Part shown: positions 6,786 through 49,600 of the stretch, one piece after another | Layout of the letters: each line of letters starts with the position of its first letter | Numbering within the stretch: the first letter of the stretch is position 1 | Assembly (NCBI RefSeq): GCF_008520305.1 | Contig: NZ_ML703278.1 | Coordinates: 1-64,000, forward strand | Origin: Mesorhizobium sp. SARCC-RB16n | GTDB lineage: Bacteria > Pseudomonadota > Alphaproteobacteria > Rhizobiales > Rhizobiaceae | Direction of reading: 5' to 3' | DNA: 64,000 nt | Notes under the pieces: generated by a model | What the model was told of the DNA's origin: nothing | The model's database searches: none | Seen by the model: only the letters and a program-made list of their open reading frames with translations | Translations under genes and position numbers: made by a program

Positions 6786-6899
6786 GTTTTTATCCTGACG
6801 CTTAATGCAGTCGAGGGCGCACGAGCGCGCATTTTTCGGTGACATGACCTTGCATAAAAAAACGGATCAAGTAAACATGCACAAAAAATAACAAATGTT

Positions 6900-25593: not shown

Positions 25594-26808
25594 GTGAGCA
25601 ATGTGGCCATATCCCGAAATGATCGCCCTTCGGTAGATGTTACTATTGGTGAGCATGCCGAACAGCTGAGCTCCCAGCTTCAAGCTATGAGCGAGACACT
25701 GTTTCCTCCCACCTCGCACAAGAGTTTGCGCAAATTCACGTCGGGTGAAGCAGCCCGCCTAATGAAGATATCCGATTCAACGCTTCGAAAGATGACTTTG
25801 GCGGGTGAAGGGCCGCAGCCCGAACTCGCCAGCAACGGAAGGCGCTTCTACACACTAGGTCAGATAAATGAGATCCGGCATATGCTGGCGGGCTCTGCTC
25901 GTGGACGCGAAAGCATCGAGTTCGTGCCCCATCGACGAGGCTCGGAGCACTTGCAGGTCATCGCGGTTACCAATTTCAAAGGCGGCTCGGGCAAGACGAC
26001 GACGTCGGCTCATCTTGCTCAGTATCTTGCGCTGCAGGGGTACAGAGTACTCGCCGTTGACCTCGATCCCCAGGCCAGCCTCTCGGCACTCCTCGGGGTT
26101 CTTCCAGAGACGGATGTGGCTTCCAACGAGACATTATATGCGGCAATCCGCTACGACGACGCGAGACGGCCTCTCAAAGAGGTTATTCGCCCGACGTACT
26201 TTGACGGATTGCATCTCGTTCCTGGAAATCTTGAGCTTATGGAGTTTGAGCACACTACTCCAAAAGCCTTGAGCGACCGCGGTTCACGCGAGGGGCTTTT
26301 TTTCACCCGTGTCGCCCAGGCTTTTGATGAGGTCGCCGATGACTATGACGTGGTTGTAATCGACTGCCCTCCCCAGCTTGGGTTCTTGACCCTAAGTGGC
26401 CTGTGCGCCGCGACATCAATGGTCATCACTGTGCATCCTCAGATGCTCGATGTCGCGTCCATGAGCCAGTTCCTACTTATGACCCGCGACCTCCTCGGCG
26501 TCGTGAAGGAGGCCGGGGGAAATCTCCAATATGATTTCATCCGCTATCTGCTTACCCGGTTTGAACCTCAGGATGCGCCGCAGACGAAGGTCGCGGCGCT
26601 GTTGCGCAACATGTTTGACGATCATGTCCTCACCAATCCAATGGTGAAATCTGCAGCCGTCTCCGATGCCGGTCTTACAAAGCAGACCCTCTACGAGATC
26701 GGCCGAGAGAATCTAACGCGGTCGACATATGATCGGGCGATGGAGGCTTTGGATTCGGTAAACGCCGAAATCGAGGCTTTGATCAAGACTGCATGGGGGC
26801 GGGCATGA
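25594..26808 (+). CDS. repA: RepA, plasmid partitioning ATPase (ParA type)
   Basis: A 404-residue protein: N-terminal helix-turn-helix (FTSGEAARLMKISDSTLRKM), then a ParA ATPase with deviant Walker A FKGGSGKTTTSAHLA near residue 128, VLAVDLDPQASLSAL and DVVVIDCPPQLGFLTLSGL. RepA autoregulates repABC and, with RepB and parS, segregates the plasmid. The GTG start gives the usual RepA N-terminus (PSVDVTIGEHAEQLSSQLQA). Confidence 0.95.
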   Translation: MSNVAISRNDRPSVDVTIGEHAEQLSSQLQAMSETLFPPTSHKSLRKFTSGEAARLMKISDSTLRKMTLAGEGPQPELASNGRRFYTLGQINEIRHMLAGSARGRESIEFVPHRRGSEHLQVIAVTNFKGGSGKTTTSAHLAQYLALQGYRVLAVDLDPQASLSALLGVLPETDVASNETLYAAIRYDDARRPLKEVIRPTYFDGLHLVPGNLELMEFEHTTPKALSDRGSREGLFFTRVAQAFDEVADDYDVVVIDCPPQLGFLTLSGLCAATSMVITVHPQMLDVASMSQFLLMTRDLLGVVKEAGGNLQYDFIRYLLTRFEPQDAPQTKVAALLRNMFDDHVLTNPMVKSAAVSDAGLTKQTLYEIGRENLTRSTYDRAMEALDSVNAEIEALIKTAWGRA

Positions 26809-26833
26809 TGGCCGGCACGAATCATGACGACTC

Positions 26834-26849
26834 GTTGGGAGCTCCCAAC
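26834..26849. promoter_or_regulatory. parS site 1
   Basis: The perfect palindrome GTTGGGAGCTCCCAAC fits the repABC parS pattern GTTNNNNGCNNNNAAC and lies 25 bases after the repA stop, in the repA-repB gap where parS occurs in several repABC plasmids. RepB is the expected ligand. Confidence 0.85.
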
Positions 26850-26952
26850 AGAGCGCTGCCCTGGCTGCTCCGTGTTGCTGCCCAGCGCCCCTGCCTGTCG
26901 AATTCACACCAGGGATTTTGTGCGGACGTCCGGCAAGCCCGCCTGCGACTTC

Positions 26953-26976
26953 GCTTGTTGGGAGCTCCCAACAAGC
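26953..26976. promoter_or_regulatory. parS site 2 (extended palindrome)
   Basis: A second identical GTTGGGAGCTCCCAAC core (26957-26972), here extended by GCTT and AAGC to a 24-bp perfect palindrome, in the same repA-repB gap. Spacing between cores is about 123 bases. Confidence 0.85.
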
Positions 26977-27031
26977 AGCTCCTACCGGCGAAACCATGCT
27001 GCCTCGAAACTAGCCCGCAAAGATCAGTGCC

Positions 27032-28045
27032 ATGAGCCGCAAGGACGCAATCGACTCATTGTTCCTTAAGAAGCCCGTAGCGAGCGAGAAGGCCCCGACG
27101 GACAAGTCAGTTGCTCGTGTCCGCACCGGTGCTATCTCCGCCATGGGCTCGTCGTTACAGGAAATGGCGGAAGGAGCAAAAAACGCAGCTCGGCTACAAG
27201 ATCAGTTAGCCTCTGGCGAGGCTGTCATTGCCCTGGATCCATCCACAGTCGAAGGATCAACGATCGCTGACCGATTGCCTACAGCCATCGATCCAAAGTT
27301 CGATCAGCTAAAGGCGAGCATTGCGGAGAACGGGCAGCAAATTCCGATCCTTGTTCGACCACATCCAGAAATGACCGGCCGATATCAGATTGCGTATGGG
27401 CGGCGACGGTTGCGGGCCGCCGTCGATCTGGGTCAGGCGGTGTCGGCAATTGTCAGAAACCTGACTGATCGTGAGTTGGTGGTAGCTCAAGGTCGGGAGA
27501 ATCTGGACCGTGCTGATCTCTCGTTCATTGAGAAAGCCCTTTTTGCGCTAAGACTTGAGAACGCGGGCTTCGATCGCACAACCATCACCGCTGCCCTCTC
27601 AACTGACAAGTCTGACGTCAGCCGCTATATCGCCGTCGCACGAACCGTACCTGAAAAACTTGCAGCTCAGATAGGCCCGGCCTCAAAGGCTGGAAGATCG
27701 CGCTGGATTGCGCTCGCTGAGAGTATAGCGAAGCCCAGGGTCATGGACGCTGTCGAGACGGTTCTGGAATCTGAACGGTTCAAAGCCTCAGATAGCGACA
27801 CTCGCTTCGCGCTCATTTTCGATCTTGCGTCGAAGCGTCCTAGCAAGTCCTCCAGGAAGGTAAAAGCTTGGAGTACGCCGAAGGGGAAAAAAGCGGCGCG
27901 GATCCAGCAAGAGATCGGCAGGACAGCCTTAATTTTCGACGAGAAGCTGGTGCCCTCATTCGGAGAATATGTCGCAGACCAGTTGGATCGTTTGTATGCC
28001 CAATTTATCGAAACCAGCGGAGGAGGGACAACCGACCAAGAGTGA
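27032..28045 (+). CDS. repB: RepB, ParB-type partition protein
   Basis: A 337-residue ParB-family protein with an N-terminal RepA-contact region (MSRKDAIDSLF), the ParB nuclease-like core (QIPILVRPHPEMTGRYQIAY followed by GRRRLRAA) and a helix-turn-helix (TTITAALSTDKSDVSRYIAV). It binds parS in the preceding gap and works with RepA. Length and order are canonical for repABC. Confidence 0.95.
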   Translation: MSRKDAIDSLFLKKPVASEKAPTDKSVARVRTGAISAMGSSLQEMAEGAKNAARLQDQLASGEAVIALDPSTVEGSTIADRLPTAIDPKFDQLKASIAENGQQIPILVRPHPEMTGRYQIAYGRRRLRAAVDLGQAVSAIVRNLTDRELVVAQGRENLDRADLSFIEKALFALRLENAGFDRTTITAALSTDKSDVSRYIAVARTVPEKLAAQIGPASKAGRSRWIALAESIAKPRVMDAVETVLESERFKASDSDTRFALIFDLASKRPSKSSRKVKAWSTPKGKKAARIQQEIGRTALIFDEKLVPSFGEYVADQLDRLYAQFIETSGGGTTDQE

Positions 28046-28096
28046 AACCTTCTTCAACCCAGCGACGCTGGGTAGGGATAGAAAACCACTAGTCGC

Positions 28097-28150
28097 AAAA
28101 GAAAAAGGCCACCGAAACGAATTCCGGAAGCCCTTCTCTGTAGTCTCGCA
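28097..28150 (-). ncRNA. Predicted antisense counter-transcribed RNA in the repB-repC gap
   Basis: On the minus strand TTGACG (-35, 28185-28180) and a weak GATTCT (-10, about 28162-28157) precede a stretch ending in a hairpin GGCTTCCG/CGGTGGCC followed by TTTTTCTTTT (about 28132-28097). repABC plasmids encode a 50-60 nt antisense RNA here that blocks repC expression and sets incompatibility. Boundaries are estimates. Confidence 0.6.
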
Positions 28151-28251
28151 ACTAAGAGAATCGCATTTCCGAGAATCACCGTCAAGAGCCTTCTGAGGCT
28201 CAACGCCGATTCGGCGAGCGGAATTCTTTTGCCTAACAAAAGGTAAAGGAA

Positions 28252-29571
28252 ATGCAGACGTACGTCTCAACGACGCCCTTTGGGCGGCGGCCGGTAAAGC
28301 TTGGCCATATTGCAAGTCAGATCACCGCAAAGACGGTCTCACGTAACGCTGTCGCTCACAAGTGGCAGGTTTTTCAGCATATTCGCGAAGCGCGCGAGTT
28401 GATCGGGGCCACGGACCGCTCGCTCGCGATCCTGAACGCCCTGCTCACCTTCCATCCAGAAACGGCCCTTGCAGGCGATGCGGAGCTTATCGTCTGGCCG
28501 TCGAACGAGCAGCTCATGGCGCGGGCAAATGGTATGCCCGCGACGACGCTGCGCCGGCATCTCGCCGTCCTGGTCGATTGCGGTTTGATTATCCGTCGCG
28601 ACAGCCCGAACGGCAAACGTTTCGCCCGCAAGGGCAGGGGCGGCGAGCTCGAGCAGGCTTATGGCTTCGACCTCTCGCCGATCGTAGCGCGTGCGGAAGA
28701 GTTCCGAGACCTGGCTGATGCAGTGCAGGCTGAGAAGAAGGCCTTCCGGGTCGCCAAGGAGCGCTTGACCCTGCTTCGGCGTGACATCGTCAAGATGATC
28801 GAGACTTGCATTGAGGAGCGCGTTCCAGGGAACTGGGGCAGGGTGCATCAGACCTATCAACAGATCATCCTCCGGTTGCCACGCTCGGCTCCTCGCCAGC
28901 TTGTCGAGAGCATCGCGCAAGAGCTGCACGAGCTTTGCACGGATATCCGTGAGGTATTGGAATCATTCACACAATCACAGAATATGGACGCCAATGAGTC
29001 CCATTTCGGCCGCCACATACAGAATTCAAATCCAGACTCTAATTTTGAATCTGAACATGGCTTGGGAAATGAGGATGAAGCGGGCGGCACCGTTGCGGAA
29101 ACCGACAAGGTACGGAGCCTGCCGAAACGGGAGCTGCCTTTGGGGATCGTGCTGGACGCCTGCCCGGAAATCCGAGAGCTGGCAAAAGGCAGCGCAATCC
29201 GGCACTGGCGCGACTTGCTGACCGCGGCGGAGGTCGCCCGGCCAATGCTGGGGATCAGCCCGAGCGCCTGGCGGGAGGCCCGTGAGGTCATGGGTGAACA
29301 ACATGCCGGGATTACCCTGGCCGCGATCTATCAGAGGTCCGGGCAGATCAACAACGCCGGCGGCTATCTGCGTAGCCTGACCGATCGGGCCAAGGACGGG
29401 AAGTTCTCGACCTGGCCGATGATCATGGCACTGCTCCGGGCTAAACTGGACGCGCAGAAGCCAGCTGAGAAGCTGGATGGTTGGCGGTCAAATGGTGACG
29501 GTGAAGCCGAAGATCGCCTGCAGGTCTCGGATTCGCTGTTGAAGAGCCTGCAGAGGCCGAAATCGCGATGA
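28252..29571 (+). CDS. repC: RepC, plasmid replication initiator
   Basis: A 439-residue RepC. The N-terminal replication-initiator domain (RNAVAHKWQVFQHIREAREL, LAILNALLTFHPETAL, MARANGMPATTLRRHLAVL winged helix) is followed by a hydrophilic middle and a C-terminal domain (SAWREAREVMGEQHAGITLA). RepC is the essential initiator and acts in cis at an origin inside its own gene. Its leader contains the antisense RNA region. Convergent with the recombinase gene, 11 bases away. Confidence 0.95.
   Translation: MQTYVSTTPFGRRPVKLGHIASQITAKTVSRNAVAHKWQVFQHIREARELIGATDRSLAILNALLTFHPETALAGDAELIVWPSNEQLMARANGMPATTLRRHLAVLVDCGLIIRRDSPNGKRFARKGRGGELEQAYGFDLSPIVARAEEFRDLADAVQAEKKAFRVAKERLTLLRRDIVKMIETCIEERVPGNWGRVHQTYQQIILRLPRSAPRQLVESIAQELHELCTDIREVLESFTQSQNMDANESHFGRHIQNSNPDSNFESEHGLGNEDEAGGTVAETDKVRSLPKRELPLGIVLDACPEIRELAKGSAIRHWRDLLTAAEVARPMLGISPSAWREAREVMGEQHAGITLAAIYQRSGQINNAGGYLRSLTDRAKDGKFSTWPMIMALLRAKLDAQKPAEKLDGWRSNGDGEAEDRLQVSDSLLKSLQRPKSR
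28965..29065. other. Predicted oriV within repC
   Basis: An AT-rich stretch interrupts the otherwise GC-rich repC coding sequence in its middle third. In studied repABC plasmids the origin lies in an AT-rich segment at this place in repC. No iterons are visible, as expected for the class. Inference from position and composition. Confidence 0.5.
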
Positions 29572-29582
29572 AGGCAGCGCTG

Positions 29583-30533
29583 TTATCCGGCCATAGGAAA
29601 GGCAGTGTCGCCGGCGCTGGCAATCAAACCCGATCGGCGGGCCCGGTCGATGAGGTTCTTCACGGACGAGGGCGACCATTTGGAGCCGCCGCGCGGGGTG
29701 CGCTCGTGCAACCTTTCGAGCTGAACGGCGATTTCGCGCAAGGTCAGATCGGGATTCGACCAATGAATGCCGGCGACCAGCGTCATCAAGCGATCCTCGG
29801 GCAGGCGTGGAGGAGACTTGCGAAGCAATGCCGGGTCGGCCATGCGCTCCGCGACCAGCCATTTTACGGCGCGGCGAAGGCGTTCCGGCGTCCAGTCGAG
29901 ACCGCGCTGCTCGAGCACGCGGGCGATGTCGTCCCAGGTGTGATCCGGCCGCATGCGGCGAACGATTGGAAGCCACTGGTTAGCGGAAGCCTGAATGCGA
30001 TCGCCGTAGGCGGCTTTCTGCACCGCGGTCATTTTGGCCAGCGCCTCGGGGCGTTTTTCCCGGATACCGGGGTTGCCGGACAATCGACCCGTTGCCTTTG
30101 CGGCCTTGATGCCGGCCTTGGTACGCTCGGAGATCAGCGCGCGTTCGAGCTGCGCCACGGCGCCCAGCACCTGGAGCGAAAACATTCCCTGCGGCGTGGT
30201 CGTATCGATGGGGTCGTGCAGCGAGCGAAAATGCGCATTCCTCGTGGTCAGATCCTCGATCACCTCGAGCAGATGGCCGACGGACCGCGCCAGACGATCG
30301 AGCCTCACGACCACGAGCGTGTCACCGGCGTCGATCTCACGAAGCAGCCTGGAAAGGGCAGGGCGCGCCCGTGACGCTCCGGATCCGTGTTCCTGGACGA
30401 TGACGTCACAGCCGGCCGAGCGAAGTTCAATCTCTTGCGCTTCCGTCGCCTGTTCCTCCGTCGAGACCCGCGCATAGCCGATAAGCCGGCCCTGAGGCCG
30501 GCGAGAAGAGCGATTGTGTGCATCACCAGCCAT
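29583..30533 (-). CDS. Serine recombinase (resolvase/invertase family)
   Basis: About 316 residues. The catalytic domain has the nucleophile in IGYARVSTEEQ (Ser24), VVVRLDRLARSVGHLLEVI, and QLERALISERTKAGIKAAKA; a longer than usual C-terminal region has two HTH-like segments (ERLRRAVKWLVAERMADPAL and LTLREIAVQLERLH). Family members resolve plasmid multimers or transposon cointegrates or invert DNA. Convergent to repC, so a multimer-resolution role is plausible. The ATG after GGGGCG is used; an upstream TTG would add 13 codons. Confidence 0.88.
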   Translation of the reverse strand: MAGDAHNRSSRRPQGRLIGYARVSTEEQATEAQEIELRSAGCDVIVQEHGSGASRARPALSRLLREIDAGDTLVVVRLDRLARSVGHLLEVIEDLTTRNAHFRSLHDPIDTTTPQGMFSLQVLGAVAQLERALISERTKAGIKAAKATGRLSGNPGIREKRPEALAKMTAVQKAAYGDRIQASANQWLPIVRRMRPDHTWDDIARVLEQRGLDWTPERLRRAVKWLVAERMADPALLRKSPPRLPEDRLMTLVAGIHWSNPDLTLREIAVQLERLHERTPRGGSKWSPSSVKNLIDRARRSGLIASAGDTAFPMAG

Positions 30534-30589
30534 TTGCAGCGCCCCAGAGACCGTCGAGCGGCGATTTTCCAATTGCAGAAGATACGGAT

Positions 30590-30601: not shown

Positions 30602-30814
30602 GTAAACGTCTCTAGGTACTTTTCCGCCGTCGCTGTGGCTGCGCAAACCTTGGAAATAAACGGTTTCGAGCTTTAGCAAGGTCGATAGGCGGGCACCTGT
30701 TCAATGCCCAGGCAGCTCGCCCTCTGTATATCGACGGGTGTCGGAGAAAACACCCTATGACGGAAGCCAATGGCGTGTTAGTTTCCGTTTCGATAAAATC
30801 CTCAAGTGTTCGCA

Positions 30815-31933
30815 ATGGGATACCGTTCAGCCAATTTACCCTTGGAAGAGCTCCTTCCGCACGTAATGAGGGCGGAGGACCAGCTCGCTCGCCTGGATGA
30901 GCGAGCACGTCGAAGCCCAGTCACCTCCGGCTTCATTGAGCGAGGGCATTTCTTCGACGCTGCCGCCAGCATGTGGGTCGCCGGCGAACTTGTCCATGTC
31001 GAGGACCTCGTTCTTCACGATGCCCATATGGATGTCCGCGCCCCGACGCATGAGTTGGTGATTGCGCACTCCATCCTTCGAACGCGGCGCAGGATTGCGG
31101 CAGCCGAACCGGGCTGGGCGCTGAGCGACGTGGGGTTAGCGACGCTGCGCGGTCAATCAGGTGACGTTCATCCGGCGGTGCCAGGGGAAGGAAATCTCCA
31201 CGCGCAACATGATGATGATGATGTTGATGACCATGAAGCTGTCGATCCCCTTTCGGACGAGTTTGCAGAGTTTGATGCGGTCCTCGCGCGGTCGGAGCGT
31301 GTTCTAACACAACATGCGGCTGCTCCTCCGACGGCGGTATCGGTCAAGGGGAAGGAACGCGATCCACTCGTGTATGATCAGGACTGGGATGAAGCTGAGC
31401 GTCTGGCGCGTTGGCAGGAGCTGGTTTCCGACACTGCTGGCGTGCCGCCGTCGCTAGCCGCAGCCTTGGCTTGGGAAGAATGGGAAACACTCGAGCCGCT
31501 GCAACGCCAACATTGGCTGGGTGCGCAACTGGCGGCCTCCATTCTGCGGTCAGAACGGAAGGTTGGCACACATCTGCTGGGCATCAATGCCGGACTCAAA
31601 TCCATCTCGCGTGAGCGTCGGCGGTCACCGGTCCGAACGACCCGGCTGACGGCTTTCCTTGATGCGTTGTCGAGCGCGGCCGAGGCGGGAATGAAAGAGC
31701 TCGATCGACTTGTCCAAGCGAAGGATCTAATGGAACGGCGGCTTCGGAACCGTCGGTCGTCAAGCAGTCTTCCTAGCGTCATAGAACTTGTGCTCTCCAG
31801 GCCACTTGTGTCTGCAGCAATGATCGCCAAGGAAGTGAAGATCAGCCCGCGCGGCGCACTCAATTTGATTTCCGAACTCGGCGTTAGGGAAATGACGGGG
31901 AGAGGCCGGTACCGTGCATGGGGGATCACCTAG
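30815..31933 (+). CDS. DUF1612 / RHE_PE00001-family protein
   Basis: About 372 residues. The N-terminal part (LPHVMRAEDQLARLDERARR, RGHFFDAAASMWVAGELVHV, EDLVLHDAHMDVRAPTHEL) and the C-terminal DUF1612 helix-turn-helix region (MIAKEVKISPRGALNLISEL with GRGRYRAWG) match proteins found beside repABC on rhizobial plasmids. A Fic-related N-terminal region has been suggested for related proteins, but the Fic motif is not seen here. Function unknown, probably DNA-binding. An in-frame GTG at 30806 is an alternative start. Confidence 0.75.
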   Translation: MGYRSANLPLEELLPHVMRAEDQLARLDERARRSPVTSGFIERGHFFDAAASMWVAGELVHVEDLVLHDAHMDVRAPTHELVIAHSILRTRRRIAAAEPGWALSDVGLATLRGQSGDVHPAVPGEGNLHAQHDDDDVDDHEAVDPLSDEFAEFDAVLARSERVLTQHAAAPPTAVSVKGKERDPLVYDQDWDEAERLARWQELVSDTAGVPPSLAAALAWEEWETLEPLQRQHWLGAQLAASILRSERKVGTHLLGINAGLKSISRERRRSPVRTTRLTAFLDALSSAAEAGMKELDRLVQAKDLMERRLRNRRSSSSLPSVIELVLSRPLVSAAMIAKEVKISPRGALNLISELGVREMTGRGRYRAWGIT

Positions 31934-32020
31934 CGCGGAACTTGGAGATGAACGTGGAGCCGGCTGTTGATCGCTCGTAGAAGAAGCGTAACATGGCGAG
32001 GGCATTGGGGGTGGCAATCG

Positions 32021-32938
32021 GTGACAAGTGCTGTTCAGGTCTGGAATCCAGACGACTGGGAATTGTTTTCACTTAGTTTGCTTCAACATCGTCACGGCAC
32101 ATTGAACGTGCACAAGATACCGGCAGCACACAAAGGTGACTATGGCATCGACTACTATTGCGCTAAAGAGGCGGTTGCCTACCAATGCTATGTTGTCGAA
32201 GAGCCGGTCGACATCGCCACACGGGCGGAACGGCAAAAGAAAAAAATCACTACAGATCTTCGCAAGATAATAGCCAATTCCGTCGAGATCGCGAAGTTGT
32301 TTATGGGCGTGCCCATAAAGCACTGGGTTCTGCTCGCTCCGAACCACGACAGTAAGGAAGTGAATCTTCACTGCTCGAAAAAGACCCTGGACATGCGCGA
32401 TGCGAAATGTCCAGCGCTCGACATCACCTTTGAGGTTGGCATTCACGATCCGGGCTCGTTTCCGAAAGACGCTGTCGCTGTGGGCATGTCCACTGTCTCC
32501 AGCGTAAAGCTGTCAATCCCTACTCCTTCGCAACAAGAACTTGATACGTGGGCGGCGGGTTCATCCAACCTTCTGACAAATGCAACGCAGAAGTTGGGCA
32601 AGAGAACCGGTCCGGATCACGTCCACGAGGCAGTTGCGGAAGCTGCTAAATCGTTCCTGCAGGGGAATGCCTTGCTCGACGCCCTTCGCAACGGTTCTCC
32701 AGACCTCCATGAGAAAATTATGTCAGCCATAAATAGCCGGGCTCGTCGCCTGCAATTTGCAGGGCCGCAGGGGGTGCAGACACCTGGCTCGATTTTGCAC
32801 ACCGAGCTGGATTCCCTCATCTCGGCGATGCGCACGGCGGCGCCGAACCTTTCGGAGGAGAATGCAGAGCAGATAGCCTATGGGTCGATATGCGAATGGA
32901 TCATGCGTTGTCCGCTGGATTTTCCCAATGTCCAATGA
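32021..32938 (+). CDS. ABC-3C module component 1: putative nuclease-fold effector
   Basis: About 305 residues from a GTG behind GGGGGTGG. Near the N-terminus HKGDYGIDYY (Asp40, Asp44) is followed by AVAYQCYVVEE (Gln55), which resembles the Mrr-like endonuclease pattern GxDxGID...QCK, with Tyr in place of the usual Lys. The rest is helical and unassigned. It overlaps the next gene by 11 bases and is first in a tight three-gene set with a winged-helix middle protein and a Rad50-like ATPase. In Lamassu/ABC-3C systems the corresponding gene encodes the toxic effector. Nuclease activity is inferred, and the missing lysine is a caution. Confidence 0.65.
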   Translation: MTSAVQVWNPDDWELFSLSLLQHRHGTLNVHKIPAAHKGDYGIDYYCAKEAVAYQCYVVEEPVDIATRAERQKKKITTDLRKIIANSVEIAKLFMGVPIKHWVLLAPNHDSKEVNLHCSKKTLDMRDAKCPALDITFEVGIHDPGSFPKDAVAVGMSTVSSVKLSIPTPSQQELDTWAAGSSNLLTNATQKLGKRTGPDHVHEAVAEAAKSFLQGNALLDALRNGSPDLHEKIMSAINSRARRLQFAGPQGVQTPGSILHTELDSLISAMRTAAPNLSEENAEQIAYGSICEWIMRCPLDFPNVQ

Positions 32939-33416
32939 ATCGGTGCTTCGCCAAGCGATCCTGAACGGGGCTTTCACCTATACAGCCCGTCCTAATCCAC
33001 TTCCCGGGGACCTCCGCATGTCGTGGGGTATAGCGGTACTCATTTTGGCTCTGTTTTACAGCCGCGGAAAGAAATCGAACTTCCAGAAGCTTCAATTTCT
33101 GGCCCATTCAGTTCGACTGCCGGAAGGCCGTGAAGAGGTTCGCGGGCTCTTGTCTGGGGAGTACAAGCCCACTGACGTTTCGGTGAGAGTTGAACCGTCG
33201 CTGAATCGAGCGGTCGCGCTTGCTCATGCCCTTGGGCTTGTAAAGATCGAAAAGGGCACGTCAGTTTCGCTCACCGACCAAGGCGTACGGACGTCGGAAG
33301 CGATAGTGAAGGAGGGGGAAATCTTGACGGATGAGATGCGCTTTCTGAATGACGTCGCCCCTCGCATGACTGACGCCTTAATGAAGCGGGTGTGGCGCTT
33401 GGAGGATCTGCTTTGA
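32928..33416 (+). CDS. ABC-3C module component 2: winged-helix middle component
   Basis: A 162-residue protein starting MSNESVLRQAILNGAF. Its centre (FYSRGKKSNFQKLQFLAHSV, then RAVALAHALGLVKIEKGTSV and SLTDQG) reads as a winged helix-turn-helix. A small helical middle component between effector and ATPase is the defining feature of ABC-three-component systems. It overlaps the upstream gene by 11 bases and the downstream TTG start by 4 bases, implying fixed stoichiometry. No closer family recognised. Confidence 0.65.
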   Translation: MSNESVLRQAILNGAFTYTARPNPLPGDLRMSWGIAVLILALFYSRGKKSNFQKLQFLAHSVRLPEGREEVRGLLSGEYKPTDVSVRVEPSLNRAVALAHALGLVKIEKGTSVSLTDQGVRTSEAIVKEGEILTDEMRFLNDVAPRMTDALMKRVWRLEDLL

Positions 33417-35437
33417 CGCTGCTTTTTCGAAGGCTAAGGCTCCGCGCTGTAGCAACGGATGGTGTCTATGGTGCCGATGTGCCCTTCGGCCGGGGCCTGA
33501 CCGTCCTGTGGGCTGACAACACCAAGGGGAAGTCAACATGCATGCAAGGCATGTTGTACGCCCTCGGCCTAGAGCGGATGCTGAGCCCGCGCAGAGAGAT
33601 TCCGCTGCCGCATGCGATGACGAGCTACCTGGACACCGACGACGACAAACGGGTTGATGTTCTTGAATCAAACGTTTCGCTTGAAATCGAAAACGGGCGA
33701 GGGCAAGTCATCACTGTTACTCGTGCTGTAAAGGCAAGCACAGACACTCGCCTGATAACCGTGGATTTCGGACCGGCGCTGTCAGAGGACGCGACATCCC
33801 TCAAAAGACAGAACTTCTTTGTACTAGATCCAGGAGCTGCGCAGCGGGAAGACGGCTTTCACCACTTCCTAGAGGGCTTCCTCGGCTGGCAGCTTCCTAA
33901 CGTCCGACGATACGACGCGCCAGAGACGAAACTCTACCTGGAGACCGTCTTTCCCCTTTTCTGGGTTGAGCAAAAGTTCGGATGGTCTGCGATCCCCGCG
34001 GCGATTCCCACCTACATGAGAATTAGGGAAGTTCATAAGCGCGCCGTCGAATTTGTCATGGACCTCGACGTTTACAAGCTTGAGATGTTGCGGGAGCGCT
34101 TGGCCGAGCGGATCGGCTCAAATGCCAAGCAGTGGTCTGCAATTCGTGAGGAGCTGGAGCGGTTCGTTTCGCGGGGCGGTGGCAGGATCGCAGCCCTGAG
34201 CGAGAGTCCCCTTGCCGATCCCGATGCGTTGGCTCGCGCGCACATTCAGCTTGCGGACGGAACGGAATGGACCGGCCTTTCCGCAATGGTCTCCAGATAT
34301 CGAGGGACCGCAGCTACTCTTGCATCGGTCCCGGTGCCTGATGTGGAGGACCAATCAGATGAGGTCGCTGAAAAGCTCCAGGAGCTGACCCAGCGGGTCG
34401 ATACCCTCAATGTGCAGCGGGTCAAACTTCACAATCTTCAGCAGCTCAAATTGGCCGATATGCAGTCTCTGGAAAGGCGCATCGATACCCTCGATGATGA
34501 TCTGTCCAAGAATCTGGATGTACAGAAACTACAACGTTATTCGGGGATAACGGCGACCTTAACGCCCGACAGGTGCCCAACGTGCGAGCAGGCACTCGTC
34601 GACACCTTGTTGTCCCAAGATGCCCTTTCAGCCGTTATGCCGGTTTCTGACAACATCGAATATATTCGATCGCAAAAGAGAATGTTTGAAGACATTCTCG
34701 CTCGGGAAGAGGCCGAGGAGACCGAACGAAGCGATCAGCTGTCCGCAATCAGCCGAGAACTCTTTGATCACTACGCACAGATTCGGCTGCTTAGATCCGA
34801 GCTGGTCGCGCCGGGGTCGAATCCTTCAGCGGCGGTCATTGAAGAACGCATCCGGGCAGAAGCGAAGGTCCGGGATCTAGAAGGTCTTCAGGCGGTATTT
34901 GATGACGCAATTGAGCGTTTGAGGAATTTACAGGACGTTTACAGGAAGCTTCTCGAGGAGCGTGAACAAATCCCCGGAGATAAGCTCTCCTCCAGTGATC
35001 GGGATAAGCTGAGGCTCCTGACGGAGCTTCTCCAAAGTCAGGCAAGAGAATTCGGTTTCAGTACATTCTCGCCTTCTGAGCTGTCGATCTCCGAAGACAG
35101 TTACCGCCCCGAGAAGGAGGGGTTCGAAATCGGTTTCGAGACATCGGCGAGCGATGCTATTCGGTTGAAGTGGGCGTATCAGCTAAGCTTGCTCGAGCTT
35201 GCGAACGCAAAGCACACCAACCACCCGGGATTGCTTGTGTTCGACGAGCCGCGGCAGCAGTCTTCCTCGAAGGTGAGCTTCGAGAATCTATTGAAGAGGG
35301 CGTCTGGTGCTGGCCGGCGAAATCAGCAGGTCATTTTTTCTACTAGTGAAGATCTAGAGGCGTTGAAGCAAATCACTGGAAAGCTTGTCTGCAGTGAGGT
35401 GATTTTTCCCGGCTACATTTTGCAGAAACTTCAGTAA
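33413..35437 (+). CDS. ABC-3C module component 3: SMC/Rad50-like ATPase with zinc-hook motif
   Basis: About 674 residues from a TTG behind GGAGG. The N-terminus has the P-loop ADNTKGKST (residues 34-42, with Ala in place of the first Gly). A long charged, coiled-coil-rich middle contains a CPTC pair (Cys388, Cys391) like the Rad50 zinc hook. The C-terminus has Walker B LLVFDEPRQQ (Asp611, Glu612) and a switch-like QQVIFSTSED. The canonical ABC signature is not obvious. Such ATPases sense DNA ends or foreign replicons and release the effector in Lamassu-type defence. Confidence 0.75.
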   Translation: MTLLFRRLRLRAVATDGVYGADVPFGRGLTVLWADNTKGKSTCMQGMLYALGLERMLSPRREIPLPHAMTSYLDTDDDKRVDVLESNVSLEIENGRGQVITVTRAVKASTDTRLITVDFGPALSEDATSLKRQNFFVLDPGAAQREDGFHHFLEGFLGWQLPNVRRYDAPETKLYLETVFPLFWVEQKFGWSAIPAAIPTYMRIREVHKRAVEFVMDLDVYKLEMLRERLAERIGSNAKQWSAIREELERFVSRGGGRIAALSESPLADPDALARAHIQLADGTEWTGLSAMVSRYRGTAATLASVPVPDVEDQSDEVAEKLQELTQRVDTLNVQRVKLHNLQQLKLADMQSLERRIDTLDDDLSKNLDVQKLQRYSGITATLTPDRCPTCEQALVDTLLSQDALSAVMPVSDNIEYIRSQKRMFEDILAREEAEETERSDQLSAISRELFDHYAQIRLLRSELVAPGSNPSAAVIEERIRAEAKVRDLEGLQAVFDDAIERLRNLQDVYRKLLEEREQIPGDKLSSSDRDKLRLLTELLQSQAREFGFSTFSPSELSISEDSYRPEKEGFEIGFETSASDAIRLKWAYQLSLLELANAKHTNHPGLLVFDEPRQQSSSKVSFENLLKRASGAGRRNQQVIFSTSEDLEALKQITGKLVCSEVIFPGYILQKLQ

Positions 35438-35615
35438 ATGGACCAGGGCAGTCGTAGGCAGCCATCGCCCCGTCACGCTCCTTCACCCCGTTGCCGCAGG
35501 CAATGAGCGTTGCTCTGCGATGCCGACCGAACTTCACTTGGTAGTTGATCTACCTGCTTTTTTGAGGCGTGCAAGGGACATCCGCGCTTAACGTGGGACA
35601 ACTAGGGGGAAGTGC
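35438..35615. other. Gap between the ATPase gene and the DUF4365-like gene
   Basis: About 180 bases with no gene. It probably carries a promoter for the following two genes, because the next start has its own ribosome site (GGGGGAAG). Confidence 0.35.
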
Positions 35616-37178
35616 ATGGAAGGGCGGGATGTCGGTATGCTGGGAGAGAACCAGTTCATAAGCTGGTGCGAGCCCGAAGGGTTCCGCGCTCAGAAATGTC
35701 TGGTCGACAGGCTGGGTTGGGACTTCCTACTCGAACGTGAACCGGTTCGCTCGACGCAAATGCCGCTGGACAGCCAGAACGACCTCCCGAAATTCCTCGT
35801 CCAAGTCAAATCGACGGACCGAGCAGGGGAGGTGCCCAGGATCAAGCTTTCGGCCCTCAAGCATCTCGTCGATGCCGATCTGCCGGCAGCGATCGCCGTG
35901 CTCGAATTCGGAATCGGAAACAGGTTGCCCATGCGCAGCCTGATGGTTCCGGTGGATGGAGCGGTCATTTACTGGACACTGCGCCGCGTGCGACGGGAAG
36001 AGGCGCGGGGAAATCGCAAGCTCCATAAGGTCACGGTTCCGATCCCGCTGGAACACGCAGTCGAGCTGGGCAGCGGCGGTGAAGGGTTGTCAGCTGCCCT
36101 TGACGGCATGCTTGGCGGATCCTTGTCCGCCTATATCGAAGGCAAGATCCGACAGCGACAGACGTGCGGCTTTGAAGACGGTTCTGTCGTCGGCAGGTTC
36201 TTTGTTCCCGGCGAAGATGCCCGGGAGAAGATCCACAGCCTATTCCTCGGTAGTCGTCGGGAAATCGACGTCATGGATCTCACCATCGAGCGCCGGCGGT
36301 TCGGCATCGCTCTGGAGAACGACACGGACTTCTTCCACAGTGCGATCCTGGAGTTTCAGGCGCCGCCTCTCATGTCGGCATCTGTTGAGCTCGCTGACCC
36401 GGACGACGGTCAATGGACGAGATTTCCGGTCCAGGTGTTCGCGGTGCTGCCGTTACCGGACGGCGAACCGAGCGCCCCGATCCGGATGGCCAACGCGTTC
36501 TTCGAGATCATCCTCGATTTCGAAAAGGAATGGGCAGGCATGAACTTTGACTATAGTGGGTCGCGGTCGGTCGAGCTGGACGAAGCAGTCACGATAGTCG
36601 AGGTTGGCGCGATACTGGCCCGTCCGCACAAGAAGGTGAAGATCGAAATGGGAGCCGCAGCACTGGAATTGCCGGCGGCCGAGGGCGAACCGGGGCCGTT
36701 TCACAACTGGATTCCGGTGGCGCCCATGCTTCGTCGCATGGCGTCCGTCATCGAAAGACATGCCAAACCCGATGCGCCCTATGTCGTGCTCTCAGACTTC
36801 TACCAATGGATAGAAAAACATCAGGATCTTCTGGCGCTGGGCTCGATCGCCGGGGCTAACTTGTTTTTTCCGCGTTGGGACGACGACGGCATCGTGGATT
36901 CGCAAGACACGGTTCTCGCGCCCCTGACAGTTGAGCTGGCGGGTGTGCAGTACACGGTATTGATTGAGCTACCCATTGAGACGATGGGAAGGGATGAGAA
37001 CGAAATCAAACTCGTCTGTGGCCAGCCGCGAATAGTCGCCGACATCGCTCGCTCACCCGGCTCCAGCACGACGGACTTCATCGACCGCGCTGTCGACATG
37101 TCGAAACGGCAGCGAAAGGCAGCAGGCCCCGCGCTGGTCGCCGCGGCCTTTGAGAACTGGACGATCGGATCGGCATAG
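35616..37178 (+). CDS. DUF4365-like protein with restriction-endonuclease-fold N-terminus
   Basis: A 520-residue protein. The first 120 residues carry LGENQFISWC (Glu11), LGWDFLLE (Asp36) and FLVQVKST (Gln63, Lys65), the layout of DUF4365/PD-(D/E)XK nucleases. The remaining 400 residues are unrecognised, with no clear second domain motif. It follows the ABC-3C genes in the same direction after 180 bases and is followed by another nuclease-fold gene, so it may be a further defence component or a separate system. Confidence 0.6.
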   Translation: MEGRDVGMLGENQFISWCEPEGFRAQKCLVDRLGWDFLLEREPVRSTQMPLDSQNDLPKFLVQVKSTDRAGEVPRIKLSALKHLVDADLPAAIAVLEFGIGNRLPMRSLMVPVDGAVIYWTLRRVRREEARGNRKLHKVTVPIPLEHAVELGSGGEGLSAALDGMLGGSLSAYIEGKIRQRQTCGFEDGSVVGRFFVPGEDAREKIHSLFLGSRREIDVMDLTIERRRFGIALENDTDFFHSAILEFQAPPLMSASVELADPDDGQWTRFPVQVFAVLPLPDGEPSAPIRMANAFFEIILDFEKEWAGMNFDYSGSRSVELDEAVTIVEVGAILARPHKKVKIEMGAAALELPAAEGEPGPFHNWIPVAPMLRRMASVIERHAKPDAPYVVLSDFYQWIEKHQDLLALGSIAGANLFFPRWDDDGIVDSQDTVLAPLTVELAGVQYTVLIELPIETMGRDENEIKLVCGQPRIVADIARSPGSSTTDFIDRAVDMSKRQRKAAGPALVAAAFENWTIGSA

Positions 37179-37239
37179 GCTGGCCGCAGGGACGGTGTGC
37201 GCACTGGGCGCAGATGCCGGGCTTGGGAGGGTGCTAATA

Positions 37240-38280
37240 TTGTTGGAAGCAGTAGAGTCGCGTTCAGCGATCCATGCATGTGTGAACCTGTTCGAGCACA
37301 AATTTGCAATAGGTGGGCGGAAAATCTCCGGGCTGAAGCACGGGGCGATTTGGCAGGAACGGCTTGGGGTATGGGGCTACTTTTCGGAGAGCGGTCGGGC
37401 GACGCCTCCTGAGAAGTACTGGAATGTTTTCGGACAGCAGCCGGCACGATTGCGCGACAACATGCTGGTGGAGATCAATCCCCCGGGCACTGGCAAGAAC
37501 CTGAACCGGCAGGGTGTACTTGCCACAGATGAACAAGGCCATCGCTGGCTGCTGCACCAGGGTCGCCTCCATCCGCGCGGCATTCGCATCACCGAGGAAA
37601 TGTTCGATACCGTTGCAAAATCGAAGCGGGTTCCTGTTCGCTATGCGGACGGGACGGTGGCATCGTGCCACCGCGTCGCGGACCTCGATCGGCCGGCCCC
37701 CGAGGTGCAGGACTGCGTTGCCGCGTTCGTCGAGCTTTGCGCCCGGGTTCGGATCCACTTTCAGCTCGGCGCTGTAGCCCAGGACATGTTCGACCGTGTC
37801 AGCGAGGCAGAGGGTTCGTCCAATCCAGAAAAACAGGGCGCTTACAATGTCCCGCCTGTCGCGGCAAGAACCGCTGAACGTCGGCATGCGGACATCTGGC
37901 ACGCGCTGACCAGAACTCTCGAGGCGTTGGACATTCCGCATTCCAACAGTCGGTTCGGACGGTATGGTCCAGATCTCTTCGCTCAAGCGGGACGGAACAG
38001 ACTTCTGTTTGAAATCAAGTCCGATGCGACGGCCTCGGACATCCAACGTGCACTCGGTCAGCTTCTGCTGTACGAACACCTCGGCGGCGAAACGTGCAAG
38101 AAGGTGATGGTGCTGCCTGGCGAACCACCTCTTCAAATCAGGAAGGCGCTCGCTGCCCTTAGCATTGATCTGCTATATTTTGCGAAGCGGGGAATCTCGA
38201 TTCAATTCGATCAGCAAACCGTGCGCGATATCATCGGGAAAGCGGCGCCTCGCACGCAAAGGGAACGGCGCGTCAATTAA
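37240..38280 (+). CDS. Putative PD-(D/E)XK nuclease, unknown family
   Basis: About 346 residues. No family recognised in the N-terminal half. The C-terminal third has a clean nuclease signature: RYGPDLFAQ (Asp245) then LLFEIKSDA (Glu258, Lys260) followed by ALGQLLLYEHLGG, the helix with Gln and Tyr common in this fold. The TTG start is preceded by GGGAGGG at good spacing; an upstream in-frame GTG at 37231 is the alternative. It starts about 60 bases after the DUF4365-like gene and is likely co-transcribed. Confidence 0.6.
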   Translation: MLEAVESRSAIHACVNLFEHKFAIGGRKISGLKHGAIWQERLGVWGYFSESGRATPPEKYWNVFGQQPARLRDNMLVEINPPGTGKNLNRQGVLATDEQGHRWLLHQGRLHPRGIRITEEMFDTVAKSKRVPVRYADGTVASCHRVADLDRPAPEVQDCVAAFVELCARVRIHFQLGAVAQDMFDRVSEAEGSSNPEKQGAYNVPPVAARTAERRHADIWHALTRTLEALDIPHSNSRFGRYGPDLFAQAGRNRLLFEIKSDATASDIQRALGQLLLYEHLGGETCKKVMVLPGEPPLQIRKALAALSIDLLYFAKRGISIQFDQQTVRDIIGKAAPRTQRERRVN

Positions 38281-38450: not shown

Positions 38451-38473
38451 ATGCATTTTCAGCAAATGCTGAA
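38392..38473. promoter_or_regulatory. Paired palindromic operators of the abiE operon
   Basis: TTCAGCATTTGCTGAA (38392-38407) and TTCAGCAAATGCTGAA (38458-38473) are exact reverse complements, each nearly self-palindromic, about 66 bases apart and flanking the likely promoter. A half-site TAGCTGAA lies between. AbiEi proteins autorepress by binding inverted repeats in this position. The right copy overlaps both possible start codons of AbiEi. Confidence 0.75.
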
Positions 38474-39542
38474 AACTCACCTAGAAGTGAACGATCTTGA
38501 GACCCAGGCAGCCGAGGCCGTCGCCGCATTGCTGCGCAGCGTCCCCGCCATCCACGTGGAGAAGGTGGAACTGACGCCGCCCAGTTCCAGCATCGATATT
38601 TTCGCGGAATTTAGCCTGGACGGAAATCGTCGCTTTCTCGCTTGCGAAGTCAAACCAATCGGTCAGCCGCGGCATGTGCGTGCGGCACTCTTTCAGCTTC
38701 GGAAGACTGCGGAGAAGTACGATCCTCCGGCGATGCCGATCTTCATCGCGCCTTACCTGTCTCAGGAAGCGCAAGCGCTTTGCCGGGAATTCGATGTGGG
38801 CTATCTTGACTTGGTTGGAAATGCCCGGATCGCGTTCGATACCGTATTCATCGAACGCCAGGTTGATGCAAAGCCGCCTGCCATTCAGCGAAACCTGAAA
38901 TCCATCTTCAAACCGAAATCCGCGCAGGTTCTCCGGGTGCTTCTCCGCGATCCTGATCGCGCGTGGCGCGTCGCCGATCTCGCCCAAGCTTCCGACGTGA
39001 GCCTGGGCCACGTCAGCAACGTCCGCGGCGAGCTGGTTGATCGCGAATGGGCCGAGGTGACGGATGACGGCCTACGGCTGTCGCAGCCCGGCGGGCTCCT
39101 GGATGCCTGGCGTGACGCCTACGAACCACCGGTCGGCGAGCGCATGGGGTTCTATACGACGCTCCATGGTCAATCTTTCGAGGTCTCGGCGCGTCGCGCC
39201 CTGAGCGCCGGACGAGCCACACCAAACGCCGTGTTCGCATCGTTTTCGGCGGCGCATTGGCTGGCGCCTTATGGTCGGGTGTCCACCCAATATTTCTACG
39301 CGGACTCGGCTGGACTTGCGGCGCTAAGCGATGCTCTGAAACTGTCTCCGTCTACCTCAGGGGCGAATGTGATAATTACGGTGCTGAAGGATCATGGGCT
39401 TTTCAACGATGTCACCCAGCCTGCCCCGGGAGTGGTTTGCACCAGCCCCGTCCAGACTTACCTCGACCTTGGCGTTGCCGGAGAACGAGGAGCCGAAGCT
39501 GCGCAACATCTAAGACAGGAACTCCTCCCATGGCCAAGATAG
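38451..39542 (+). CDS. abiEi: AbiEi-type antitoxin/autoregulator with nuclease-like N-terminal domain
   Basis: A 363-residue protein. Residues 20-110 contain IDIFAEF (Asp49) and FLACEVKP (Glu66, Lys68), a PD-(D/E)XK-like layout. A winged helix follows (AQVLRVLLRDPDRAWRVADL, ASDVSLGHVSNVRGELV). The C-terminal half corresponds to the AbiEi domain that neutralises the toxin. Type IV toxin-antitoxin pairs of this kind act in phage defence and element stability. Its 3' end overlaps abiEii by 13 bases. A second in-frame ATG at 38466 is possible. Confidence 0.75.
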   Translation: MHFQQMLKTHLEVNDLETQAAEAVAALLRSVPAIHVEKVELTPPSSSIDIFAEFSLDGNRRFLACEVKPIGQPRHVRAALFQLRKTAEKYDPPAMPIFIAPYLSQEAQALCREFDVGYLDLVGNARIAFDTVFIERQVDAKPPAIQRNLKSIFKPKSAQVLRVLLRDPDRAWRVADLAQASDVSLGHVSNVRGELVDREWAEVTDDGLRLSQPGGLLDAWRDAYEPPVGERMGFYTTLHGQSFEVSARRALSAGRATPNAVFASFSAAHWLAPYGRVSTQYFYADSAGLAALSDALKLSPSTSGANVIITVLKDHGLFNDVTQPAPGVVCTSPVQTYLDLGVAGERGAEAAQHLRQELLPWPR

Positions 39543-40423
39543 TGCCGCCTGACCCTCAGTCTGCGGCGGATTACCAAGACCGCACGACGAAAGCCGTTAA
39601 AGGTGTCTTGGTCGAAATCGGGCAGATCCTCGGCAGCTTCAAGGGAAAGTTTGCCGTGATCGGCGGCGCAGTTCCCTGGCTGCTTCTCGACAACGAGGAC
39701 ATGCGTCACGTCGGAACGCTCGATGTCGATCTCAGTCTCGATGCAGAAGCTCTGGGTGACGGCGAGTACGTTACGTTGGTCGAAGCCTTGATGAGCCAAG
39801 GTTACAAACAGCGCGAGGAGCTTCGACGCTTTCAGCTCGTCCGTGAGGTGCCTGTCGATGATGGGGGTACGTCCATCGACATAGTCGTCGATTTCCTCAT
39901 GCCACGTGATGCGGAAATCGTGAAAAACCGTCCACCGATCCTAAATGATTTCGCCGTCCAGCGGGCCGACGGCGCGGATCTCGCTCTTCGCTTCTATCAA
40001 CTGGTCGCCATCTCGGGCGACATGCCGGACGGCGGCACTAATCGCGTCGAGATTGCCGTTTGCTCCATCCCAGCTTTGCTCGCCATGAAAGGCTATGCGC
40101 TCAATGGCCGGCATAAGCAGAAAGACGCCTACGATATCTACTACTGCATTCGCAACTATCCCGATGGAATCGAGGCCTTGGCCGAAGCCTGCAAACCTCT
40201 GCTCGACCACGAAAGCGGAGCCCAGGGCTACAAATACATCGCGGACAAGTTCGACGCGCCTGACGGCTACGGCGCGACAAGCGTGCGCAAATTCGTAGCT
40301 GAGACGGACATCCTCGATGGCCGTACACCCGAGCAATGGCAGCAGGACGCCTTCGGCCAGGTCGATGCGTGGTTGCGAGTGCTAGGCCTGCGAGGGGGTG
40401 CTATGGAGCAGCGCGAAGGATAG
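39530..40423 (+). CDS. abiEii: AbiEii-type nucleotidyltransferase toxin
   Basis: A 297-residue protein with the nucleotidyltransferase fold: FAVIGGAVPWLL (Gly-Gly) followed by LDVDLSLD (Asp65, Asp67), and the KDAYDIYYCIRNY segment corresponding to the K-x3-D motif of AbiEii. AbiEii-family toxins use nucleotides to modify RNA targets such as tRNA acceptor ends. Translationally coupled to abiEi. The start has an AGGA ribosome site within the upstream gene. Confidence 0.8.
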   Translation: MAKIVPPDPQSAADYQDRTTKAVKGVLVEIGQILGSFKGKFAVIGGAVPWLLLDNEDMRHVGTLDVDLSLDAEALGDGEYVTLVEALMSQGYKQREELRRFQLVREVPVDDGGTSIDIVVDFLMPRDAEIVKNRPPILNDFAVQRADGADLALRFYQLVAISGDMPDGGTNRVEIAVCSIPALLAMKGYALNGRHKQKDAYDIYYCIRNYPDGIEALAEACKPLLDHESGAQGYKYIADKFDAPDGYGATSVRKFVAETDILDGRTPEQWQQDAFGQVDAWLRVLGLRGGAMEQREG

Positions 40424-46693: not shown

Positions 46694-49600
46694 ATGGCGC
46701 AAGACGACCCCTTCACCCTCGACCTGTTCGGCAATACCGCTCTTTCTTCCGGTCTTGGCCTCGGCGTTACCGCCTTTTCGGCCGCATTTGCCGACGATCC
46801 TGACGATGATGACCCGACACCCTCGCCCCTCGCACCCGCCAAGCCCATCGCGGCGGATGCGGGGTCCGTGCGCAAGTCGCCAAGCGGAACGAACTTTTAT
46901 CTCGCCGGCGCGCGCTGCCTCGCCAGATCCTGGCGCGACCGAGCCCGGGACAATCTCGCCGCCATTCGCCTTGCCGCCGGGATCGTTGACCAACAACGCG
47001 CGGCCACAGCCGATGAACAGGCGGCGCTAATCAAGTTCACCGGCTTTGGGGCCAGCGAGCTCGCCAATGGCGTCTTCCGCCGGCCGGGCGAACAGCGCTT
47101 CCGCAAGGGCTGGGACGAAATCGGCGCGCAGCTGGAGGCTGCAACAGACAGCGGTGACTACGCTTCGCTCGCCCGGTGCACGCAATACGCTCACTTCACC
47201 CCGGAATACATCGTCCGGGCCATCTGGAACGGACTACAGCGGCTGGGCTGGCGCGGCGGCCGCGTTCTGGAACCGGGTATTGGCACCGGGCTATTTGCAG
47301 CGCTGATGCCCGAACGGTTCCGCGCGGTCTCCCACATCACCGGTATCGAACTCGACCCGGTCACTGCCCGGATCGCCAGGCTGCTGCAGCCACGTGCAAA
47401 AATCCTCAACCGGGATTTCGCGCATGTCGATCTGCCGGCGCATTTCGATCTGGCCATCGGCAATCCCCCGTTCTCGGACCGCATCGTGCGCAGCGACCGG
47501 GCGCTCCGCTCGCTTGGGCTGCGCCTGCACGACTATTTTATCGTCAAGGCGATAGACAGTCTGAAGCCTGCAGGCCTCGCCGCCTTTGTCACCTCGGCCG
47601 GTACGATGGACAAGGCGGATAGTCGCGCCCGCGCAGCAATAGCCGGCATGGCCGATCTTATCGCCGCAGTCCGCCTGCCTGAAGGCAGCTTTCGCGCCGA
47701 CGCGGGTACCGACGTCGTGGTCGATATCCTGTTCTTCCGCAAGCGTAGCCCCGGGGAGATGCCCGGTTCCGATGCGTGGCTCGATTTGGCGCAGGTGCGG
47801 GCGGAAACCGAGGACGAGGGCGCAATCCGCGTCAACCGCTGGCTCGCCGAGCACCCCGACATGGTGCTGGGTGAGCATGCGCTGCGGCGCGGCATCCATG
47901 GTCCCGACGAGACCTATACCTGCCTGCCGCGCGCCGGTGAGGACCTCGATGCTGCTCTCAACGCGGCGATGTTTTTTCTTCCGGAAGCCATCTACGGCGG
48001 CGATCCTGAAGAGATCGGTCCCAGTCTGGACGAGGATCTTGCCGGGCCGTCCGCCAGTCCGGCAGCCGATGGCATGGCGATCCGCGAGGGCAGCTATTTT
48101 CTGGCGAAAAGTGGCGCCCTGATGCAAATGATTGACGGCATTCCTGTCGCCGTCAATGTGAAGCGGGGCCGGGGGACCGATGGCATCCTCGACAAGCATG
48201 CGCGCATCCTCCGCAAGCTCATCCCGATCCGCGATGCCGTGCGCGAGGTGCTGAGGTGCCAAGAGTTGCATCGGCCGTGGAAGCCGGCACAAGTCACGCT
48301 GCGCATCGCTTGGTCGAACTTCGTGCGCGAGTTCGGGCCGATCAACTTTACCACCGTCTCGACGTCGCAGGACGACGAGACCGGAGAGGTTCGCGAAACG
48401 CATCGTCGGCCGAACATCCAGCCCTTTCTCGATGATCCGGATTGCTGGCTGGTCGCCTCGATCGAGGACTATGACCTGGAGAGCAATACGGCCAAGCCCG
48501 GGCCGATCTTTTCCGAGCGCGTGATCGCGCCGCCGCCGGCGCCGGTCATCACGAATGCCGCCGACGCGCTCGCGGTAGTCCTCAACGAACGTGGCCATGT
48601 CGATCCCGATCACATCGCTGAGCTTTTGCATCGCGATGTCGCCGCCATCATCGAGGAACTGGGACCGGCGATCTTCCAGGACCCGGCTTCAGGAGCATGG
48701 CAGGCGGCGGACGCCTATCTTTCCGGCGCGGTCCGCTCGAAGCTTGCGGTTGCCGAGGCCGCGGCTGCACTTGATCCCGTTTTCGCCCGTAATGTCTCGG
48801 CGCTGAAGGCTGTGCAGCCTGCCGATCTCCGGCCCTCCGACATCACCGCGCGTCTTGGCGCACCATGGATACCGGCGGCCGACATCATCGGCTTCGTCAA
48901 GGAAACGATGGACGCCGACATCACCATCCACCACACCCCGGAGCTTGCCTGCTGGACGGTGATGGCCCATGGCCTGCGATATTCGGCCGCCGGCACGACG
49001 CAATGGGGCACCCATCGCCGTGACGCCGGTCAGCTTCTGTCCGATGCGCTCAACTCCTCGATCCCGCAGATCTTCGACACGGTGAAGGACGGCGATACCG
49101 AGCGCCGTGTCCTCAATGTCGTCGACACGGAGGCGGCGAAGGAGAAGCTGCAAAAAATCAAGACGGCTTTCCAGAACTGGATCTGGTCCGATCCCGATCG
49201 CACCGACCGCTTGGCCCGTATCTACAATGACCGTTTCAACAACATCGTGCCGCGAAGATTCAACGGGGACCACCTGCAACTTCCAGGCGCCTCGGGCGCC
49301 TTTTCTCTTTATGGCCACCAGAAGCGGGTCATCTGGCGGATCATTGCCGCCGGCAGCACCTATGTCGCCCACGCCGTCGGCGCCGGTAAGACCATGTCGA
49401 TCGCCGCCGCGATCATGGAGCAGCGTCGGCTCGGCCTGATCAACAAGGCGATGATGGTCGTGCCCGGCCATTGCCTGGCACAGGCCGCGCGTGAGTTTCT
49501 CGCGCTCTACCCTTCCGCCCGCATTCTCGTCGCCGACGAGACGAACTTCGTGAGGGAGAAGCGTCGTCGCTTCTTGTCGCGCGCCGCGACCGCCAACTGG

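Follow-up and report, generated by a model that had tools for sequence, protein, structure and literature searches.

What is the three-gene module that lies beside a repABC cassette in Mesorhizobium sp. SARCC-RB16n, and what do its unusual nuclease and ATPase motifs mean for its function? We analyzed a window of 64,000 nucleotides (nt; contig NZ_ML703278.1, 1 to 64,000, forward strand), to which all unprefixed coordinates refer. At 32021-35437, an initial annotation made from the sequence alone had described three overlapping genes in the order effector, middle component and ATPase, as in Lamassu and ABC-3C systems. The coordinates, the order (LmuA-LmuC-LmuB by PADLOC profiles) and the overlaps, which are 11 base pairs (bp) for lmuA/lmuC and 4 bp for lmuC/lmuB, were all as claimed. 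The genes, with protein lengths in amino acids (aa), are:

lmuA, 32021..32938, + strand: effector; GTG start, 305 aa; PADLOC LmuA, 1.2e-27
lmuC, 32928..33416, + strand: middle component, predicted winged-helix-like; ATG start, 162 aa; PADLOC LmuC, 1.9e-17
lmuB, 33413..35437, + strand: Rad50/SMC-like ATPase; TTG start, 674 aa; PADLOC LmuB, 2.9e-106

We found that PADLOC profiles name all three proteins (PDLC03852 for LmuA, PDLC03863 for LmuB, and LmuC), and the triad is therefore a Lamassu system. Its membership in Lamassu is firm, and we regard it as close to certain; by its components it is of type II (LmuACB). The locus has an LmuB ATPase, an LmuA whose predicted fold includes an N-terminal enzyme domain and a C-terminal docking domain, an LmuC and an adjacent, conserved gene set. 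The LmuC middle component belongs to type II Lamassu and is absent in some systems. One Lamassu trait is missing, as LmuB carries glutamate instead of glutamine at Walker B in all 39 aligned rows; according to a Lamassu review (PMC10586767), the Glu-to-Gln change is a usual trait and not a requirement, so that membership stands. The same review places ABC-3C inside the Lamassu superfamily. The triad is already detected by PADLOC models, so the branch counts as new only through its divergence: the suggestion of a divergent or new subtype holds for its divergent features, but not for novelty to the databases. Judged by its motifs, the branch differs from the compared LmuACB systems in two catalytic centres. 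A literature search, with most subscription papers outside its reach, found no description of it.

No Pfam or NCBIfam family, housekeeping families included, matched LmuA, LmuC or LmuB above cut-off, and the Pfam ABC-3C domains had no match to the three proteins at E 1. Of 23 LmuA relatives, 22 match the same PADLOC LmuA profile, and no Pfam family is common to more than one of the 23. In the PDB, the single LmuB sequence found zero matches, LmuA and LmuC found chance-level sequence matches only, and Foldseek returned nothing below E 0.001 for the LmuA or LmuC model. The predicted LmuC model matches solved Lamassu proteins and supports the winged-helix label that the middle component had been given. 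Another profile, PDLC00262, had no match in 249 genomes nor in controls, and is hence uninformative on absence.

The first divergent centre is in the ATPase. We aligned 39 LmuB rows, leaving out short or broken ones (L010, L013, L015, L026, L028, L042 and L044) and duplicates, and located these motifs, whose names are taken over from Rad50:

Walker A, ADNTKGKST (residues 34-42), 33512..33538, + strand: G39, K40 and S41 in 39/39 rows, A34 in 36/39
Zinc hook, CPTC (388-391), 34574..34585, + strand: C388 and C391 in 39/39
Degenerate ABC signature, SASDAIR (578-584), 35144..35164, + strand: S580, D581 and R584 in 39/39
Walker B, D611-E612-P613, 35243..35251, + strand: catalytic glutamate kept, 39/39

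The atypical P-loop (ADNTKGKS, 34-41) and the CPTC motif, both pointed out in the initial annotation, are conserved across the alignment, and the oddities of the triad are constant traits of a wide clade. The ABC signature is degenerate and not lacking: SASDxIR sits where another LmuB family has a TGGEKLR-like sequence (lined up by eye). The Walker-B glutamate is a residue needed for ATP hydrolysis. It is present in every row here, in 16 further loci on viral-collection contigs and in L124, L129 and L130, compared to none of the 12 other LmuBs examined, all of which carry Ser or Gln. The Walker-B aspartate is followed by Ser in all six LmuBs encoded beside a QCK-type LmuA (named for its motif III; DSP or DSL) and in all five PDLC03864 matches, and by Gln (DQP) in the solved Salmonella LmuB of 9hqu. 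Likewise, the review states that LmuB generally carries the Walker-B Glu-to-Gln change (PMC10586767, section 9). In a tree of 56 rows (L007, L030 and L045 left out), all 45 rows of the Glu type cluster together (92/98; in 93% of bootstrap trees); their branch carries no star, and because branches are long, deep joins are unsure. With the glutamate kept, this LmuB, in contrast to the others examined, would be expected to hydrolyse ATP and might reset; we hold ATP hydrolysis as a working conclusion that the motif modestly favours.

The second divergent centre is in the effector. We aligned 42 LmuA rows, leaving out the L020 lmuA (broken frame) and duplicates, and modelled the protein with AlphaFold 2 (AF2; predicted local distance difference test score, pLDDT, 84.6). 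The domains and motifs are:

LmuA domains, predicted: PD-(D/E)XK nuclease at about residues 5-160; helical Lamassu-type C-terminal domain at about 161-304
Motif II, D40-x-G-I-D44, 32138..32152, + strand: D40 in 41/42 rows; residue 44 is D in 33 and E in 9 of 42
Motif III, Y54-Q55-C56-Y57, 32180..32191, + strand: canonical lysine replaced; Q55 in 42/42; residue 57 is Y in 40 and F in 2 of 42
Motif IV helix, K75-x3-D79-x2-K82, 32243..32266, + strand: candidate relocated-lysine site; K75 in 41/42, D79 and K82 in 42/42

By structure comparison, the C-terminal part of the model resembles solved LmuA tetramers, and the N-terminal part resembles the nucleases Avs4, 1y88, EcoT38I, MspJI and Cap4. The PD-(D/E)XK fold is assigned from these comparison rows and the AF2 secondary structure, with Foldseek E-values that are not significant. 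On this predicted structure, LmuA is quite probably a nuclease effector. The GDYGID...YQCY pattern first noticed in the effector (residues 39-44 and 54-57) is conserved over the 42 rows, and such conservation, here and across the LmuB rows, indicates that the motifs are not due to chance. Chance or decay was rejected as an explanation of the locus on the grounds of the open frames and the conserved motifs.

The motif-III lysine that characterizes the PD-(D/E)XK superfamily is missing from all 42 rows; proteins in which this lysine has migrated are nevertheless accepted in the superfamily. We compared 90 distinct rows and found that a K-x3-D-x2-K helix motif follows motif III in 51 of 51 Q[CA]Y rows vs 1 of 39 Q[CA]K rows. 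The rows outside this pattern are L106, L120 and L062, in which no motif was found, L011 and L012, which read QCF and have the helix motif, and L040 (QCY, E75), which is evidence against the pattern. Of the 39 Q[CA]K rows, 18 are near-full-length matches of the LmuA profile, and the rest are mostly partial, chiefly N-domain. These 18 LmuAs, from other genomes, all keep the motif-III lysine (17 QCK and 1 QAK), and one of them (L070) also fits K-x3-D-x2-K. Because the QCY rows are related to one another, they do not represent independent events in this association. On the predicted helix 65-85, K75, D79 and K82 share one face (40 and 340 degrees from K75, assuming an ideal helix). The available part of PMC1913061 describes lysine migration to the motif-IV helix for DUF506, DUF790 and DUF1626; these families share the lost motif-III lysine and the positive residue on the following helix, but are not presented in that part as SMC-like defence effectors. 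Our sequence comparison makes it reasonably probable that the motif-III lysine has moved to the next helix. The effector had been annotated as lacking the expected lysine: the residue is replaced at motif III, but it is probably relocated and not simply missing. One genome (G002) carries both a QCF-type (L011) and a QCK-type (L063) LmuA.

The two centres set the triad apart from its closest counterparts. QCK-type Lamassu systems share the three components, an LmuA matching PDLC03852 over most of its length, an LmuB matching PDLC03863 (L086 and L090) and the zinc-hook motif, and differ in keeping the motif-III lysine (18/18) and in their Walker B (DSP or DSL in 6/6). The solved Lamassu proteins of V. 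cholerae (9uxh/9uxi/9uxl), of Salmonella (9hqu/9hqx/9hr5, whose LmuB reads DQP) and of 9nxx/9ny1/9ny5 show 7-11% sequence identity in alignments.

We collected 46 loci (28 genome contigs and 18 plasmid regions; L004 and L045 are one record, and L003 and L015 share sequence, including lmuA) and found strong co-occurrence, as the initial annotation had asked to see. All 46 have LmuB and 44 have LmuA, and tblastn finds LmuC in 39. The two loci without LmuA (L010 and L013) are contigs that begin inside lmuB. Besides these, the LmuC match is absent in L035, L036, L038, L039 and L042, and in L035, L036 and L042 an annotated gene of fitting size sits in the lmuA-lmuB gap. Among 72,556 plasmid records, 24 have an LmuB relative and 23 an LmuA relative, and all 23 are within the 24. 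The plasmid-region hosts include Alpha-, Beta- and Gammaproteobacteria, Actinomycetota, Cyanobacteriota, Bacillota and Gemmatimonadota. Of 397 genomes of the order, 4 have a match to the LmuB profile (E 1e-20), and the full triad is found in G088, G381, G282 and L002 (which lies in G001). The triad thus recurs on plasmids, chromosomes and viral-collection contigs; on the last, all three genes occur in 16 of 16 loci, with the LmuB of L052 split in two frames. These complete triads (L047-L062) suggest possible carriage by or beside prophages. In L033 (Azospirillum ramasamyi), which was left out of the LmuC rows, an annotated IS5-type transposase lies at 6773-7578 of that locus between the lmuA and lmuB relatives, and the LmuC match is partial.

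Several observations count against an anti-phage Lamassu system with an active nuclease, and we weigh them with the explanations that they favour. The module could mainly serve the plasmid, by excluding competitors or stabilizing its carrier, which would be compatible with our preferred explanation. Two neighbours point this way: repC lies upstream in 8 of 46 loci (L003, L005, L007, L015, L026, L029, L032 and L046; flanks of at most 8 kb), and a relative of the RHE_PE00001 family gene lies upstream of lmuA in 8 of 46 (L003, L005, L007, L015, L026, L029, L030 and L046), with L003 and L015 counted in both tallies despite their shared sequence. According to the review (PMC10586767), the V. cholerae Lamassu is active against plasmids in addition to phages. 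But 38 of 46 loci show no repC within these flanks, and triads are also found on chromosomes and viral-collection contigs, so that a mainly plasmid-serving role appears unlikely.

More doubtful still is a QCY effector that has lost catalysis and works as a regulator or through binding to DNA or some other target. The replaced lysine (Y in 40 rows, F in 2) would fit such a protein. However, rows from several phyla have kept the acids of motif II, Q55 and the K-x3-D-x2-K helix, which a dead site would not need, and other architectures of the conflict type also employ this domain. That the genes encode a housekeeping complex for DNA repair, akin to Rad50, is barely credible: the LmuB profile does reach Rad50 heads in the PDB (best 1.7e-4), in line with the Rad50-like label originally given, and the Walker-B glutamate is kept, but the patchy distribution (4/397 genomes), the mobile contexts, the LmuA and LmuC partners and the lack of any housekeeping family match led us to reject it.

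Overall, the module is probably a plasmid-borne type II Lamassu defence system that would act as follows. LmuB would dimerize through its zinc hook and, together with LmuC, hold LmuA inactive. As a phage or plasmid replicates, the LmuB/LmuC complex would sense its abnormal DNA, in the form of ends or hairpins, whereupon LmuA would be released, assemble and cut DNA, stopping both cell and invader. Sensing, effector release and killing would proceed as set out in the Lamassu review (PMC10586767). With the motif-III lysine lost (QCK to QCY), K75 or K82 of the next helix probably takes over its role, and D79 would be an additional acidic residue on the same face. With its Walker-B glutamate, LmuB would hydrolyse ATP and could reset.

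The same review suggests that an apparent inability of LmuB to hydrolyse ATP makes the firing of Lamassu irreversible (PMC10586767). We tentatively propose, at somewhat less than even confidence, that the triad belongs to a broad and unremarked Lamassu branch that pairs a helix-lysine nuclease with an ATP-hydrolysing LmuB and is resettable instead of one-shot, and that its QCY nuclease is portable, being also used in ABC-3C CTD10 and in iHD-CE/HSP90-like conflict systems. A related branch with an intact Walker B lends itself to asking whether the alarm is reset or tuned by ATP hydrolysis, and given the QCK/QCY contrast, point mutants could show whether a defence nuclease has relocated its lysine. 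With the triad next to repABC, one may also ask how a plasmid copes with a system of a type known to restrict plasmids.

The QCY domain has other partners. In L094 (4451-7466), a QCY nuclease with CTD10 adjoins a PDC-M68B/DUF2326 ATPase. This ABC-3C CTD10 system (PADLOC PDC-M68) shares with the triad a QCY nuclease with the K-x3-D-x2-K helix beside an ABC-type ATPase, and differs in its C-terminal domain, CTD10, and in its ATPase, which best matches PDC-M68B and DUF2326 and in which no CPxC hook was found. Two further open frames, L122:2292-6077 (1262 aa) and L123:3335-6724 (1130 aa), fuse a QCY domain to iHD-CE and wHTH-HSP90_Na-assoc domains.

The location beside repABC, part of the original description, was confirmed. 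The neighbouring features are:

repABC replication/partition cassette, 25594..29571, + strand: context
RHE_PE00001 family gene (DUF1612 + HTH_13), 30806..31933, + strand: 87 bp upstream of lmuA; NCBIfam 6.5e-158

The RHE_PE00001 gene is treated here as a recurrent neighbour of lmuA. A resolvase-domain gene (29583-30572, minus strand) lies between repC and RHE_PE00001, an order shared with the Ti plasmid pTi_CFBP2516. The 11-bp lmuA/lmuC overlap is the same in 5 of 9 relatives inspected. The G+C contents of lmuA, lmuC and lmuB (0.533, 0.552 and 0.549) are lower than that of the window (0.599), consistent with acquisition. A DNA-level search of plasmid records with 31900-35500 gave zero matches. 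In the nearest relative (L026 with L010, one metagenome-assembled genome), LmuA is 92% and LmuB 96% identical; its RHE_PE00001 match is 93%, and its adjoining RepA is 54% identical to that of the window. Based on these identities, the Lamassu module and its RHE_PE00001 neighbour appear to move between replicons.

Just downstream of the triad, 35616-38280 holds two overlapping genes (520 and 376 aa) with no Pfam or PADLOC match, each with a nuclease-like stretch by eye (GWDFLLE...VQVKS and YGPDLF...FEIKS). They have relatives in 16 and 13 plasmid records, are both also present in L010, and are possibly an undescribed two-gene module. An AbiEi/AbiEii-like pair follows at 38451-40423 (weak Pfam matches, 3.2e-6 and 1.7e-5), with similar pairs in L004/L045 and L010, and in a 1704-aa protein at 46694-51808, PADLOC models match a methyltransferase-like region (about 162-354) and a helicase-like one (about 1280-1523).
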